Shown: one piece after another, positions 32,681 to 38,376 of the stretch | Numbering within the stretch: the first letter of the stretch is position 1 | Layout: the number at the start of each line of letters is the position of its first letter | From: Chlorobaculum tepidum TLS | GTDB lineage: Bacteria > Bacteroidota > Chlorobiia > Chlorobiales > Chlorobiaceae | Assembly (NCBI RefSeq): GCF_000006985.1 | Contig: NC_002932.3 | Location: 979,109-1,043,108 of the forward strand | Direction: 5' to 3' | Length of the DNA stretch: 64,000 bases | Notes under the pieces: generated by a model | Databases searched by the model: none | What the model saw: only the letters and a program-made list of their open reading frames with translations | Told to the model about the DNA's origin: nothing | Translations under genes and position numbers: made by a program

Positions 32681-33274
32681 CTATCCCAGGAAAACGTTGG
32701 AAACGGGCTTGCCGAGTTGAACGCAGCGCATCAAGTTGCATTTCCAGACTTCGGGAGTCTTATACTGTTTGATCTGCTCGTTGTCATCACGGCTATTGCA
32801 CTGTCGAGGGATTTCAACGAAGATGGCATCAACGATCTGAGCGGTTTTGGCAAAGATACACTGATCGTTCAGGGCGGTGTTGAACCATTCGAAGAGAAGA
32901 GCTTCAATCACGCCTTCCTCGATCAGGCTCTCACGAAACTTCCAGATGGTTTTGGCATCGAGAACCCGGTTGCTGGATTTGAGTCCCAGAAAGCGCTTGA
33001 AACTGAGCCGATCGGTAATCTGGTATTCCATCTGATTATCCGCAAGACGGTAGAGGCTTTGCAGGACGAGGAGCTTGAACATCGTTGTCCGGTCAAACGG
33101 CGTTCGGCCCATTTTGCCCAGATTGGCCGGCTTTTGGAATGCGATCTCAAGAACTGGGCGGAAGAGATCCCAGTCGATATGCTTTTCCAGTTTCACCAGT
33201 GGATCTTTGAGCTTGGTCAAACGCTCCGGAAGAAAATACTCGTCGAAAAAGCCCAGGGGATTGATGTTCTTCAT
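32681..33274 (-). pseudogene. IS5-family transposase, C-terminally truncated
   Basis: From ATG 33274 the frame encodes about 197 residues: MKNINPLGFFDEYFLPERL, then FDRTTMFKLLVLQSLYRLAD, RLSFKRFLGLKSSNRVLDAKTIW and TAQIVDAIFVEIPRQ (first catalytic Asp). This is the DUF772 region plus the start of the DDE domain. Intact relatives are about 320-340 residues. Here the sequence departs from the family soon after DNEQIKQ, and the remaining catalytic residues are missing. The open frame extends upstream to 33544, but that part crosses the ISL3 fragment and is spurious. Confidence 0.85.
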
Positions 33275-33304
33275 GGCAATGAGGTTGATTGAACCGGTCC
33301 TGCC

Positions 33305-33490
33305 ATAACATATGAGGTTGCTCGCTGGTTCACGTCGAGGGTCAGCAACGGGACGCTTGAGGGCGGAGGGCGTCAACAGCAGCCTGGTGCAGGCTGCCAA
33401 AGTACGGGCGCGGGGATACCGCACCGGCAAAAATCTCATCAGCATGATCTCCCTCATCAGCGGCAAACTCAATTTCGCCCTACCCACTTG
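33305..33490 (+). pseudogene. ISL3-family transposase C-terminal fragment with frameshift
   Basis: Reading YEVARWFTSRVSNGTLEG in one frame (33311-33364) and EGVNSSLVQAAKVRARGYRT, GKNLISMISLISGKLNFALPT in another (from 33366) reconstructs the C-terminus of ISL3-type transposases. The frame change coincides with a perfect 7-bp tandem duplication, GAGGGCG-GAGGGCG (33359-33372). The normal stop after the LPT terminus is lost, so the frame reads on to 33566. Everything upstream in the transposase is missing. Confidence 0.8.
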
Positions 33491-33551
33491 CAACAGCGAG
33501 GAGCCAATATTAACGATCTTTATTTTTCGCGAAGGAAAGTGCATCTTGTTG

Positions 33552-33621: not shown

Positions 33622-34134
33622 ATGAAACGATCGACACTCAGCACATGCCGTGTGGCGCTGTTTGCCCTGGTGCTTTCCGTTGGCTTGAGCGCCAATGCGC
33701 ACGCCCTTGACAAAGGCGACAAGGCCCCTGATTTTGCGCTGCCCGGAAAAACGGGAGTGGTGAAACTTTCGGACAAGACAGGATCGGTGGTCTATCTCGA
33801 TTTCTGGGCTTCGTGGTGCGGGCCGTGCCGTCAGTCGTTTCCGTGGATGAACCAGATGCAGGCGAAGTACAAAGCGAAGGGCTTTCAGGTCGTCGCCGTC
33901 AACCTCGACGCCAAAACCGGCGATGCCATGAAGTTTCTCGCGCAGGTTCCGGCGGAGTTCACCGTGGCGTTCGACCCGAAGGGGCAGACGCCTCGCCTCT
34001 ATGGCGTCAAGGGAATGCCGACCAGCTTCCTGATCGACCGGAACGGCAAGGTGCTGTTGCAGCATGTCGGATTCAGACCTGCCGACAAGGAGGCGCTCGA
34101 ACAGCAGATTCTGGCGGCTCTGGGAGGCAATTGA
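33622..34134 (+). CDS. TlpA/ResA-like periplasmic thioredoxin
   Basis: A 170-residue protein. A Sec signal peptide (CRVALFALVLSVGLSANAHA) is followed by a thioredoxin-fold AhpC/TSA-type domain: GDKAPDFALPGKTG and LDFWASWCGPCRQSF with CxxC C66/C69. A cis-proline loop is seen in VKGMPTSFLIDRNGKV. It is expected to reduce disulfides in the periplasm, possibly recharged by the DsbD encoded four genes downstream. Its stop overlaps the ATG of the DUF4266 lipoprotein. First gene of the TlpA/DUF4266/DUF3570/ApbE cassette. Confidence 0.93.
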   Translation: MKRSTLSTCRVALFALVLSVGLSANAHALDKGDKAPDFALPGKTGVVKLSDKTGSVVYLDFWASWCGPCRQSFPWMNQMQAKYKAKGFQVVAVNLDAKTGDAMKFLAQVPAEFTVAFDPKGQTPRLYGVKGMPTSFLIDRNGKVLLQHVGFRPADKEALEQQILAALGGN

Positions 34135-34364
34135 TGAAAAAAACGATTGTTTTGACTGGAGGCTCGCTTGTTGCCTTGCTTGCGATATCCGGACTTGCTG
34201 GATGTTCGAGCGTTCAGCCATGGGAAAAGCAGAATCTGGCCAAGCCCGAAATGACCTTCGACCGCGACGCGCTCGACGCACACTACACCGAGCATATCTA
34301 TAGCAGCAAGGAGGCCGCGTCTGGCGGCTCCGGAGTTGGCGGCGGAGGATGCGGATGCAATTGA
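34134..34364 (+). CDS. DUF4266 lipoprotein
   Basis: A 76-residue protein with a lipoprotein signal (LLAISGLAGC, lipid-attachment Cys24), SVQPWEKQNLAKPEMTFD, and a C-terminal glycine/cysteine tail SGVGGGGCGCN. This layout is diagnostic of DUF4266. The two terminal cysteines could bind metal or be a thiol partner of the upstream TlpA protein; that is inference. Its ATG overlaps the TlpA stop, and its 3' end overlaps the DUF3570 gene by 16 bp. Confidence 0.9.
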   Translation: MKKTIVLTGGSLVALLAISGLAGCSSVQPWEKQNLAKPEMTFDRDALDAHYTEHIYSSKEAASGGSGVGGGGCGCN

Positions 34365-35551
34365 AAAACAGATCGAAAATGGCGACGGCGCTGCTCGCCA
34401 GTGCCACCATGCTGCTGCCTTCGGCAAAAAATGCCTTGGCCGACGCTGCTCCTGAAGAGGGAATCTTCAGCCTGAAATATCTGAACTATCACGACACTCA
34501 GACGGGCGATACCAACCTGACAGCGGGGATGTCGATGGATCGCATGACGGTCAACGCCTTGTCTTTCTACGGTATGGTGCCGATTGCAGGCAAGTGGTCA
34601 ATCGCGGGCACCTTCATCGAAGATTCGGTCACCGGAGCCTCTCCGGCTTACCACGGCTGGGGGTTTCCATCAGAGAGCAAAAACGACAGCACCTCCGGGG
34701 CATCGGGCGAGCTGCGACACGCTGGCGACATCAGCGTTACCCGCTACTTTTCGCGAGGGACGCTCAGCCTCGGCACGAGCTACTCGCAGGAGTCCGACTA
34801 CATTTCTCGAGGCCTTTCGCTTAACGGCACGCTCTCTACCGAGAACAAGAATACCACCTTCAGCCTCGGGGCCGCCTACAGCAGCGATACGGTTTATCTC
34901 GACAAACCGGCGGTCATCGAGTCAAAGCAGAGCGACACACCGGGGCGCAAGCGCATCGTCTCCGTACTGCTCGGCGTGACGCAGGTGATGTCGCAGAATG
35001 ACGTCATGCAGGTGACCGCCACGTACACGCACGGCGATGGCTATTACAGTGATCCCTACAAGGACCCGGATCTCCGGCCCGGCAAAAGGCGGATGTTCAC
35101 CCTCATGACCCGCTGGAACCACCACTTCGACGGGCCGGATGGCACAGCGCGGCTGTCGTATCGTTACTATACCGACACTTTCGGTATCGAGGCGCATACC
35201 TTCACGGCTGAGTACATCCAGCCACTGCCGCATGGTTGGGAGATCACACCGACGGTGAGGTACTATTCGCAAAGCTCCGCCAGATTCTACGTGCCGACAG
35301 AGGACGATCCGCGGGCAAAGACCCCGACGGACGGCATGGAGTATTACTCCGAAGATCAGCGTCTATCTGCCTTTGGAGCATTCAGTTACGGCGTGAAGGT
35401 ACTCAAAGAGCTTGGCTGGAGCTGGAGCGCCGACGTGAAGTATGAGCACTGTGAGCAGCGCTACGACTGGGGCATTAACGGCCACGGCGATCCCGGCATT
35501 CCGGCATTCAGCTTCAGAAGCCTTCAGGTCGGTCTTTCGCGCAAGTTCTGA
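34349..35551 (+). CDS. DUF3570 outer-membrane beta-barrel-like protein
   Basis: A 400-residue exported protein with a signal peptide ending near KNALADA. Alternating beta strands rich in aromatic residues and a C-terminal phenylalanine (LQVGLSRKF) support an outer-membrane barrel. Two sequences, D92-SVTGAS98 and D113-STSGAS119, match the D-x-x-(S/T)-G-A-(S/T) pattern that ApbE enzymes flavinylate in NqrC/RnfG. An apbE gene follows directly. DUF3570 co-occurs with DUF4266, TlpA-like proteins and ApbE in many bacteria. Its role is unproven; it may be a flavin-carrying redox porin. Confidence 0.88.
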   Translation: MRMQLKNRSKMATALLASATMLLPSAKNALADAAPEEGIFSLKYLNYHDTQTGDTNLTAGMSMDRMTVNALSFYGMVPIAGKWSIAGTFIEDSVTGASPAYHGWGFPSESKNDSTSGASGELRHAGDISVTRYFSRGTLSLGTSYSQESDYISRGLSLNGTLSTENKNTTFSLGAAYSSDTVYLDKPAVIESKQSDTPGRKRIVSVLLGVTQVMSQNDVMQVTATYTHGDGYYSDPYKDPDLRPGKRRMFTLMTRWNHHFDGPDGTARLSYRYYTDTFGIEAHTFTAEYIQPLPHGWEITPTVRYYSQSSARFYVPTEDDPRAKTPTDGMEYYSEDQRLSAFGAFSYGVKVLKELGWSWSADVKYEHCEQRYDWGINGHGDPGIPAFSFRSLQVGLSRKF

Positions 35552-35600: not shown

Positions 35601-36482
35601 ATGCACAGATTCGGATTCAGGGCGATGGGCAGCGGATGCGAAATCGTGCTCGCCGGAACAACGAAAAAGAAGGCAAAAGCGCTTGCTATGCTTGGCATGG
35701 AGGAGATTGCCTGGATTGAGCGGAAGTATTCTCGATACCAGCCTGAAAGCGTGGTGTCGCGGATCAACGATGCCGCCGGAAAAGCGTGGGTGGCGTGCGA
35801 CGACGAAACTTCGGCCCTGCTCGATTACACTGACGCGGTGTATCGCAGTAGTGGCGGGCTGTTCGATGTGACCTCGGGCGTGCTGCGCCGGGCGTGGAAT
35901 TTCGACAAAACCGAAGTGCCTTCGCAGGAGTCGCTCTTCCCGCTGCTGAAGCTTGTCGGATGGCAACGGGTTGAGCGGCGTGAGAACGATGTCCGGCTGC
36001 CGCAGGAGGGGATGCAGCTTGATTTCGGCGGCATCGGCAAGGAGTACGCCGCCGATGCCGCCGCGGAGATTCTCTGCGAAGAGGGCGTTCGGCACGGCTA
36101 TGTGAATCTTGGCGGAGACATCCGCGTGATCGGCCCCAAGCCCGGCGGCGAGCCGTGGACGATCGGCATCCGCGATCCGCGCGATCCCGCCGGAACGATC
36201 GCCTCGATTTCTGTCAGCTCCGGAGCTATTGCCACCAGCGGAGACTACGAGCGCTTTTTCGAGGTGGAGGGGAGGCGTTACTGCCACATCATCAACCCAA
36301 AGACGGGCTTTCCGGTGAGCCAGTGGCGTTCGGTGACAGTGCTTGCTCCGCTTGCCACAACGGCGGGCAGTTGCACTACGGTTGCCATGCTTCTGGAAGC
36401 CGACGGGCTAAACTATCTGAAGAGTTCAGGATTCAATTATCTGGCCATCAATCAGTCGGGCGAAATGTATTATCAAGATTGA
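35601..36482 (+). CDS. apbE: FAD:protein FMN transferase
   Basis: This 293-residue enzyme transfers FMN from FAD to a Thr/Ser of target proteins. Family motifs: FRAMGSGCEIVL at the very start, GGLFDVTSGVLRRAW, LDFGGIGKEYAADAA, YVNLGGDIRVIG, ATSGDYERFF and HIINPKTGFPV, plus TAGSCTTVAMLL near the C-terminus. There is no signal peptide: an in-frame TAA precedes the ATG by four codons. It therefore appears cytoplasmic, unlike many Gram-negative ApbE lipoproteins. It lies 49 bp after the DUF3570 gene and 16 bp before dsbD. Confidence 0.93.
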   Translation: MHRFGFRAMGSGCEIVLAGTTKKKAKALAMLGMEEIAWIERKYSRYQPESVVSRINDAAGKAWVACDDETSALLDYTDAVYRSSGGLFDVTSGVLRRAWNFDKTEVPSQESLFPLLKLVGWQRVERRENDVRLPQEGMQLDFGGIGKEYAADAAAEILCEEGVRHGYVNLGGDIRVIGPKPGGEPWTIGIRDPRDPAGTIASISVSSGAIATSGDYERFFEVEGRRYCHIINPKTGFPVSQWRSVTVLAPLATTAGSCTTVAMLLEADGLNYLKSSGFNYLAINQSGEMYYQD

Positions 36483-36498: not shown

Positions 36499-38376
36499 AT
36501 GATAAAAAAATCAACCCCAAGAAGCTTTTTCGCAGTTGTCGGAATCCTGCTGATGCTTTTCATGAGAAGTGCTTCGGCTATGGCCGCGGACTTTCTCGAT
36601 CCCGAACAGGCTTTCGTGCCAAGCGCAGAGCTGACCGCAAATCGCTCCATCGCGGTGCACTGGAAGATTGCCAAGTCGTACAAGCTCTACCGAGACCAGA
36701 TCAAGGTGGGCGTCTCAGGTGGAAAGGCGAGCCTTGGCGAACCGGTCTTTCCCGAAGGCATCCTCTTCACCGATCCATCGACTGGCGAAAAGCAGGTTAT
36801 CTATCATGACGAGCTGAGGCTCGAGGTTCCGGTCAAGCAGGCATCAGCTCCATTCACCGTGAAGGTCGAATACCAGGGGTGTGCCGAAGACGGGTTGTGC
36901 TATCCGCCGATAAGCAAGTCGTTCAAAGTCGATCCATCCAGGCCCGGAGCACTGGCGGCCGTCGAGAGCACGCCGGACACTGGCGCATCGACCGGATTGC
37001 AGCCAGCAGCCTCAGATGCCGCGCCTGCTGTAGCCGCATCATCAGCGAACGCCGTGGATAACGGCGGCAAGAACGATCTGTCGCTCGCCCAATCGACCCT
37101 TGAAAGCGGCAGTTTGTGGAAAGTATTCGCAGCGTTCCTGCTCTTCGGTCTTCTGCTTTCGTTCACGCCCTGCGTGCTGCCTATGGTGCCGATTCTTTCG
37201 TCGATCATCGTTGGAGAAGGGGAGACCACCAAGGCGAAAAGCTTCCTCATGGCGCTGGCCTACTGCCTCGGTATGGCACTCGTTTACACCTCCCTCGGTG
37301 TGGCGGCGGGCCTCGCTGGCGAGGGCCTTGCCGGAGCACTGCAAAAGCCGTGGGTGCTCGTGATGTTCAGCCTGCTGCTGATTGGCCTTTCGCTCTCGAT
37401 GTTTGATGTCTACCAGCTTCAGGCGCCTGCTTCGTTGCAGAACAGCCTGAGCAAGACCTCCAGCAAACTCAAAGGCGGCCGTTTCGTTGGTGTTTTCTTC
37501 ATGGGAGCCATTTCGGCACTGATTGTCGGCCCATGCGTCGCTGCGCCACTGGCCGGAACACTGGTTTACATCAGCCAGACGAAGGATGTTGTTATCGGCG
37601 GTCTGGCACTCTTTTCGATGGCGATGGGCATGAGCGTACCGTTGCTCCTGATCGGCCTGTCGGCGGGCAGCCTTCTACCGAAGGCCGGAGCGTGGATGAT
37701 TGGGGTCAAATATGTGTTCGGTCTGATGCTGATCGCTGTGGCGATCTGGATGGTCACGCCGGTGCTGCCGCCACAGGCGCTGATGGTTGCCTGGGGCGCA
37801 CTCGGCATCCTTTGCGCAGTTTTCGCAGGAGTATTCGGCCATCTGCCGGAGAAGCTCACCGTCGGGGGCAAGTTCAAGAAAGCGCTCGGCTTGGTGCTCT
37901 TCATCATCGGCGTGATGGAGCTGGCCGGAGCCGCTTCGGGCGGAACCAATCCGCTCGAACCACTGGCCGGACTGCGCGGTGGTTCATCGGTTGCGGCTGC
38001 GAACAATGGCAAAACTGCTGAACTGGCGTTCAAAAAAATCCGCACCGTCGAAGACCTTGACCGCGAGCTGCATGCCTCGGCAGGCAAGAAGCCGGTGATG
38101 CTCGACTTTTACGCGGACTGGTGCGTCTCTTGCAAGGAGTTCGAAAAGTTCACCTTCAGCAATGCGAAGGTTCAGCAGGGCCTCGCCGACGTCACCCTTT
38201 TGCAGGTTGACGTGACCGCGAACACCGCGGACGACAAAGCGCTGATGAAACGCTTCAACCTTTTCGGCCCTCCCGGCATTATCTTTTTTGACAAGTCTGG
38301 CAATGAGCAAGTGGACAATCGCATCGTCGGTTTTGTCGAAGCAGAGGAATTTCTGAAGCACCTTGAAAAATTATGA
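36499..38376 (+). CDS. dsbD: thiol:disulfide interchange protein DsbD
   Basis: This 625-residue inner-membrane protein moves electrons from cytoplasmic thioredoxin to the periplasm. Domains: signal peptide, DsbD-alpha (CAEDGLCYPP redox pair), eight-helix CcdA-like core with TPCVLPMVPI and GPCVAAPLAG cysteines, and a C-terminal thioredoxin domain FYADWCVSCKEF. All catalytic cysteines are present and the length is normal. Placement directly after the TlpA/DUF4266/DUF3570/ApbE cassette suggests that it supplies reductant to the cassette's TlpA-like protein. Confidence 0.95.
   Translation: MIKKSTPRSFFAVVGILLMLFMRSASAMAADFLDPEQAFVPSAELTANRSIAVHWKIAKSYKLYRDQIKVGVSGGKASLGEPVFPEGILFTDPSTGEKQVIYHDELRLEVPVKQASAPFTVKVEYQGCAEDGLCYPPISKSFKVDPSRPGALAAVESTPDTGASTGLQPAASDAAPAVAASSANAVDNGGKNDLSLAQSTLESGSLWKVFAAFLLFGLLLSFTPCVLPMVPILSSIIVGEGETTKAKSFLMALAYCLGMALVYTSLGVAAGLAGEGLAGALQKPWVLVMFSLLLIGLSLSMFDVYQLQAPASLQNSLSKTSSKLKGGRFVGVFFMGAISALIVGPCVAAPLAGTLVYISQTKDVVIGGLALFSMAMGMSVPLLLIGLSAGSLLPKAGAWMIGVKYVFGLMLIAVAIWMVTPVLPPQALMVAWGALGILCAVFAGVFGHLPEKLTVGGKFKKALGLVLFIIGVMELAGAASGGTNPLEPLAGLRGGSSVAAANNGKTAELAFKKIRTVEDLDRELHASAGKKPVMLDFYADWCVSCKEFEKFTFSNAKVQQGLADVTLLQVDVTANTADDKALMKRFNLFGPPGIIFFDKSGNEQVDNRIVGFVEAEEFLKHLEKL

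Follow-up and report, generated by a model that had tools for sequence, protein, structure and literature searches.

Introduction

Covalent flavinylation of a DUF3570 protein was described by Meheust et al. 2021 (PMC8238504). In that paper, apbE-associated DUF3570 proteins are reported to carry two conserved [ST]GA[ST] motifs, and a gene cluster is described that encodes a TlpA-like thioredoxin, DUF4266, DUF3570, ApbE and DsbD, together with the CXC tail of DUF4266. According to the same study, the Chlorobium luteolum DUF3570 protein became flavinylated upon co-expression with its cognate ApbE in E. coli, and flavinylation was abolished only by Ser-to-Ala mutations at both motifs. For ApbE enzymes, a catalytic-triad Asp has been assigned as D301 in Listeria FmnB and D285 in the V. 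cholerae enzyme (PMC12052999), and in E. coli Ftp D280 is a ligand of metal 1 and E169 a ligand of metal 2 (PMC4767422, Table 3).

Gene cluster and genome context

The window examined here is a stretch of 64,000 nucleotides from the Chlorobaculum tepidum TLS genome (2,154,946 bases, single contig). It holds five genes on the same strand, whose Pfam matches have E-values between 1e-24 and 1e-92. A TlpA-like periplasmic thioredoxin with a signal peptide and a WCGPC motif (33622..34134, +; Redoxin E=8.3e-27) is followed by a DUF4266 lipoprotein (34134..34364, +; PF14086 E=1e-24) with lipobox LAGC and a flexible Gly-rich tail ending GGGGCGCN. The third gene codes for the DUF3570 protein of 400 aa (34349..35551, +; PF12094 E=1.9e-61, 208.6 bits against a cut-off of 25), a predicted outer-membrane β-barrel of 16 strands and predicted carrier of two FMN groups. 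The cluster is completed by the ApbE FMN transferase, a leaderless variant and the sole apbE product of the genome (35601..36482, +; PF02424 E=2.2e-79), and by a DsbD-type transmembrane thiol-disulfide reductase as the putative electron source (36499..38376, +; PF02683 E=2.5e-92, PF11412 E=3.1e-30). The first three genes overlap, the DUF4266 start lying within the TlpA stop and the DUF4266 end running into the DUF3570 start. The apbE gene begins at 35601, 49 nt past the DUF3570 stop, the spacing given in the initial annotation.

This gene order is common to close relatives (for example L033, L127 and L124), and the ApbE, DUF3570, thioredoxin-like, DUF4266 and DsbD genes of the DsbD-type flavinylation cluster all occur together. 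In Chlorobaculum, the cassette represents this published system. Recurrent DUF3570/DUF4266/ApbE neighborhoods, noted in the initial annotation, are seen among these relatives and in the cluster described in PMC8238504. A C-terminal CXC is present in 87/87 DUF4266 homologs, the window protein having the tail GCGCN. The Pfam search gave no cytochrome or terminal reductase gene within the cassette.

On the 5′ side lie recB- and recD-like genes and then an IS transposase gene (DUF772, 32681-33544, −), which directly adjoins the cassette and could influence its promoter. In relatives, a further thioredoxin match had suggested that this IS element removed a second thioredoxin gene here; the match proved to be the thioredoxin domain of DsbD, and the apparent loss an artefact. 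A search for plasmid relatives found none.

Probable substrate of the ApbE

The DUF3570 protein carries the motif D92-SVTGAS98 (site 1; 34622..34642, +) at the start of loop L2 of the structural model described below and D113-STSGAS119 (site 2; 34685..34705, +) at the end of the same loop; both had been placed correctly in the initial annotation. When the mature protein was shuffled 100,000 times, at least one motif appeared in 0.6% of the shuffles and two in 0.004% (4 shuffles). The motif occurs in no other reading frame of at least 100 codons within the window. A degenerate DNA pattern of the motif gave 39 six-frame matches genome-wide, against 20 for a reversed control, and among the matches read in frame, those other than the DUF3570 pair were single and mostly located in cytosolic proteins or non-coding frames. 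Other motif-bearing proteins were considered as the true ApbE target and rejected: DGGTGAS is a known stretch of glutamate synthase, DLMSGAT lies in an FtsK-like protein, and others were out of frame. A membrane-anchored ORF of 713 codons (L188; G000:C1:1630000-1634500, −) contains a single DLKSGAT, which may be a second ApbE target or a chance match.

The genome as a whole has one apbE and one DUF3570 gene, and searches of it gave no FMN_bind (PF04205) proteins and no NqrB or RnfD. The observation that the cassette encodes no classical FMN-binding target therefore extends to the whole genome, which, with its single apbE, offers no evident substrate other than the DUF3570 protein. Among Chlorobiaceae genomes, apbE is found in 63/67 of those with DUF3570 and in 12/19 of those without, and 10 of the latter 12 apbE genes are of the canonical, leader-bearing type. 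By analogy with C. luteolum, the window protein would very probably be a barrel that carries two FMN groups attached by the neighboring ApbE. The earlier proposal that DUF3570 itself is the substrate is correct by homology and was already known, since PMC8238504 gives biochemical evidence for C. luteolum.

Absence of a leader and site of flavinylation

In the window, an in-frame stop precedes the ATG of apbE by five codons. The conserved core of the protein starts at residue 8, so that there is no room for a leader. Only one of the 52 Chlorobiaceae ApbEs of the DUF3570 type passed a crude test for a leader, and it did so on a doubtful reading upstream. The canonical ApbEs of the order, which have no DUF3570 link, possess a lipoprotein-like leader in 11/11 cases. 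Outside the family, DUF3570-linked ApbEs have a leader in about 17/27 and none in 10.

The missing leader makes the cytosol the most likely place of modification, and we consider it probable that flavinylation occurs there before Sec export. We know of no FMN-bearing polypeptide that crosses SecYEG. Flavinylation could instead be periplasmic, with the leaderless enzyme reaching that compartment by an unrecognized route, in line with the periplasmic modification of characterized envelope targets of ApbE and with the leaders of some DUF3570-linked ApbEs outside the Chlorobiaceae. This is rather unlikely for the enzyme studied here, as the DUF3570-linked ApbEs of Chlorobiaceae are leaderless whereas the canonical ApbEs of the same order keep their lipoprotein leaders, and as a leaderless ApbE from Klebsiella pneumoniae acts in the cytosol (PMC12052999).

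Predicted barrel structure and possible electron route

An AlphaFold2 model of the DUF3570 protein, based on 86 homologs, is a 16-strand barrel with a pLDDT of 93.6 and a pTM of 0.89, in agreement with the barrel-like fold of the initial annotation. One side of the barrel bears turns of 2-6 residues, and the opposite side has loops of 3-33 residues. The two motifs are positioned at the two ends of L2 (residues 95-120), which connects strands 3 and 4 and has a disordered middle modeled with low confidence (pLDDT below 50 for residues 108-117). The motif serines are thus located in a loop and not buried in strands. Foldseek matched the model to FadL, OmpG and porins. The C-terminal residue is Phe, as in 65/124 homologs, and a signal peptide was judged by eye. 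In outer-membrane barrels the short turns and the termini are usually periplasmic; with sidedness deduced from the loop lengths in this way, the model places both flavins most probably on L2 at the outer mouth of the barrel.

In the proposed sequence of events, Ser98 and Ser119 would, as in the C. luteolum relative, each receive an FMN from the adjacent ApbE through a phosphoester bond. Attachment would occur ahead of Sec export in the cytosol, which can supply FAD, after which the flavinylated protein would fold in the outer membrane as a 16-strand barrel with both flavins on L2 at the outer mouth. DsbD could hand electrons to the TlpA protein by thiol exchange. From there they could move on to the DUF4266 lipoprotein, whose CXC tail would exchange them with the flavins through the barrel; it may be speculated that the Gly-rich tail reaches the barrel lumen. 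We propose this route from DsbD via TlpA and the CXC of DUF4266 to the barrel flavins only tentatively. Extracellular sulfur, iron or polysulfide are candidate acceptors. The barrel could also be a flavin-gated or redox-sensing channel and not an electron carrier, which would agree with its porin/FadL-like fold, with the predicted position of the flavins in mouth loops, and with a cassette that lacks a cytochrome or terminal reductase. We regard such a function as unlikely, because linkage to DsbD, a thioredoxin and the CXC lipoprotein points to delivery of electrons.

Conservation and relocation of the flavinylation sites

For sequence comparison, Bacteroidota genomes supplied an alignment of 124 distinct DUF3570 proteins, 94 from Chlorobiaceae and 30 from other families. 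At site 1, Ala97 and Ser98 are conserved in 122/124 homologs and Asp92 in 113/124. All 94 proteins from Chlorobiaceae have x-x-x-[ST]-G-A-S at this site. Outside this family the Gly is replaced by Ser in 28 of the 30 proteins (L069-L088, L091-L098); 26 of these have [ST]SAS, one of them without a linked apbE, and two have ASAS with a linked apbE. A second [ST]SAS or SSGAS often lies within the site-1 loop of the non-Chlorobiaceae proteins. The Gly-to-Ser form deserves attention because a Gly-to-Ala replacement in the motif reduced flavinylation of a model protein (reviewed in PMC12052999). The expectation that the motifs are conserved across DUF3570 homologs therefore stands for the Ala-Ser pair of site 1; it does not stand for the preceding Gly outside Chlorobiaceae, nor for the second site, whose position is not homologous throughout the family.

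In the Chlorobiaceae proteins the second motif shares L2 with site 1 in 59/94 cases and belongs to an insertion in L1, the loop before it, in 29/94 (L049, L050, L052, L054, L055, L062 and others), never in both. This exclusivity gave a Fisher p of 1e-18, a value uncorrected for relatedness. On the tree the placement of the second site needs two label changes, and the well-supported branches leave one possible. A constant number of sites, despite the shifting place of the second, suggests selection for two near sites on one face of the barrel.

Genome G075 is probably that of C. luteolum DSM 273. Its apbE-linked DUF3570 protein (L062) is of the L1 type, and a model of it has 16 strands and a pLDDT of 89.9, in which L1 and the end of strand 3, beside L2, hold the sites. 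Ser119 of the window protein and the second site published for C. luteolum are thus probably not homologous. Modification of Ser119 is inferred, since the second site tested in that species lies in L1 if L062 is indeed its protein. One could suppose that only Ser98 is flavinylated in the window protein and that the second motif is tolerated or structural, given that site 1 is far more conserved and that site 2 lacks the leading Asp in many homologs and has no strict form in 6/94 Chlorobiaceae proteins, several of which carry near forms such as TSSAS, VSSAS, ISKAS and VAGAS. Modification of Ser98 only is nevertheless improbable, as an extra [ST]GA[ST] motif is found in one of two neighboring loops in 88/94 of these proteins and never in both, and as both sites are modified in C. 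luteolum according to PMC8238504.

DUF3570 paralogs of Chlorobiaceae that are encoded far from apbE mostly keep both sites, so that one ApbE probably serves several barrels. In five Chlorobium-type genomes (G193, G197, G324, G137, G173) as many as nine DUF3570 matches, of which some lie in tandem, accompany a single apbE (e.g. L049, 6248-14531). A suspected double barrel of 832 aa in G197 was found, on reading the sequence, to be two separate adjacent ORFs. Two loci (L089 in G055 and L090 in G252) have DUF3570 and DUF4266 genes and no nearby apbE, which in these genomes lies elsewhere; site 1 is lost (DQVTVPA) and TAVTGAT is kept.

Exchange of acidic residues in the ApbE

The window ApbE has the PF02424 domain, and alignment to solved ApbEs shows that Ser213 and His229 are conserved. 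Position 256 (codon 36366..36368, +) is Gly instead of the conserved metal/catalytic Asp, corresponding to FmnB D301, V. cholerae D285 and E. coli Ftp D280; Gly is found in 52/52 enzymes of this type and Asp in 38/38 other ApbEs, including 11/11 canonical enzymes of the order without DUF3570 link. A Glu has been gained in the metal-binding loop at position 148 (codon 36042..36044, +; Glu in 52/52 of the type, Gly in 38/38 others), which adjoins the equivalent of E. coli Ftp E169 by alignment with offsets counted by hand. Metal ligands are numbered here as in E. coli Ftp.

Loss of the metal-ligand Asp could weaken the enzyme. By analogy, however, the acid would probably have shifted its place in an enzyme that still works, because the exchange is shared by the ApbE of G075 and the C. 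luteolum pair shows activity. That the C. tepidum ApbE is degenerate, with relic motifs and DUF3570 now an ordinary porin, could be read from Gly256 where all 38 comparison enzymes have Asp, but is very improbable because the substitution is shared by 52/52 of the type, always with Glu148 and with Ser213 and His229 intact, as expected of a conserved variant, because the ApbE of the probable C. luteolum genome also has Gly while the pair works in E. coli, and because unused motifs would decay whereas site 1 is conserved in 122/124.

Implications

A composite scheme appears plausible, though we advance it with reserve: in green sulfur bacteria, a dedicated leaderless ApbE with a migrated metal-binding carboxylate (Asp256 lost, Glu148 gained) would flavinylate the barrel in the cytosol, the double-FMN preprotein would pass through Sec and BAM to expose two flavins at the outer surface, and selection would act on having two sites and not on the place of the second. 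A model green sulfur bacterium, studied for extracellular sulfur turnover, has a complete predicted flavinylated barrel system in which the barrel is the only plausible ApbE substrate. The leaderless, acid-exchanged ApbE raises the question of whether Sec and BAM can handle a protein with covalently bound flavin, and it offers a variant for flavin-tagging work, and the [ST]SAS sites broaden the motif for genome surveys. This ApbE and the relocating second site matter more than the substrate assignment, which had already been published.

A full-text search of the open-access literature for DUF3570 matched PMC8238504 only. The open-access papers searched described no leaderless ApbE with the Asp-to-Gly/Gly-to-Glu exchange, no relocation of the second site and no Gly-to-Ser form of site 1, and the searched text of PMC8238504 does not discuss leaderless ApbE, the exchange or site relocation. 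Searches for C. tepidum literature on the locus, in which the CT locus numbers used as queries were guesses, found no paper, and the locus is not named in the retrieved text of an OMV proteome paper, its core list included.

Comparison with known systems

The DUF3570 model shares its outer-membrane barrel fold with FadL, OmpG and porins, from which it differs by an identity of about 10% and TM values of 0.4-0.5; to our knowledge these barrels have no flavin motifs. In FMN_bind proteins such as NqrC and RnfG, as predicted for the DUF3570 protein, FMN is linked covalently to the final residue of the motif, but they are small soluble domains without a barrel and are absent from the C. tepidum genome. 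The cytosolic ApbE of Klebsiella pneumoniae also lacks a signal peptide, yet its known target is a soluble cytosolic fumarate reductase, whereas the predicted target of the window ApbE is an exported barrel. With the canonical periplasmic ApbE/Ftp enzymes of E. coli, V. cholerae and T. pallidum and with Listeria FmnB, the window ApbE has in common the PF02424 domain and the catalytic Ser and His, and the D-x-x-[ST]-G-A-[ST] motif that they recognize is the form found in the window DUF3570 protein. It differs from them in having no leader, in Gly256 at the position of Asp280 (E. coli), Asp285 (V. cholerae) and Asp301 (FmnB), and in the new Glu148 beside the second metal loop. The closest system is that of C. 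luteolum, which (PMC8238504) has the same five-gene cluster, belongs to the same family, Chlorobiaceae, and has two [ST]GA[ST] sites. The second site of the window protein lies in L2, in contrast to L1 in the probable C. luteolum protein (G075/L062).
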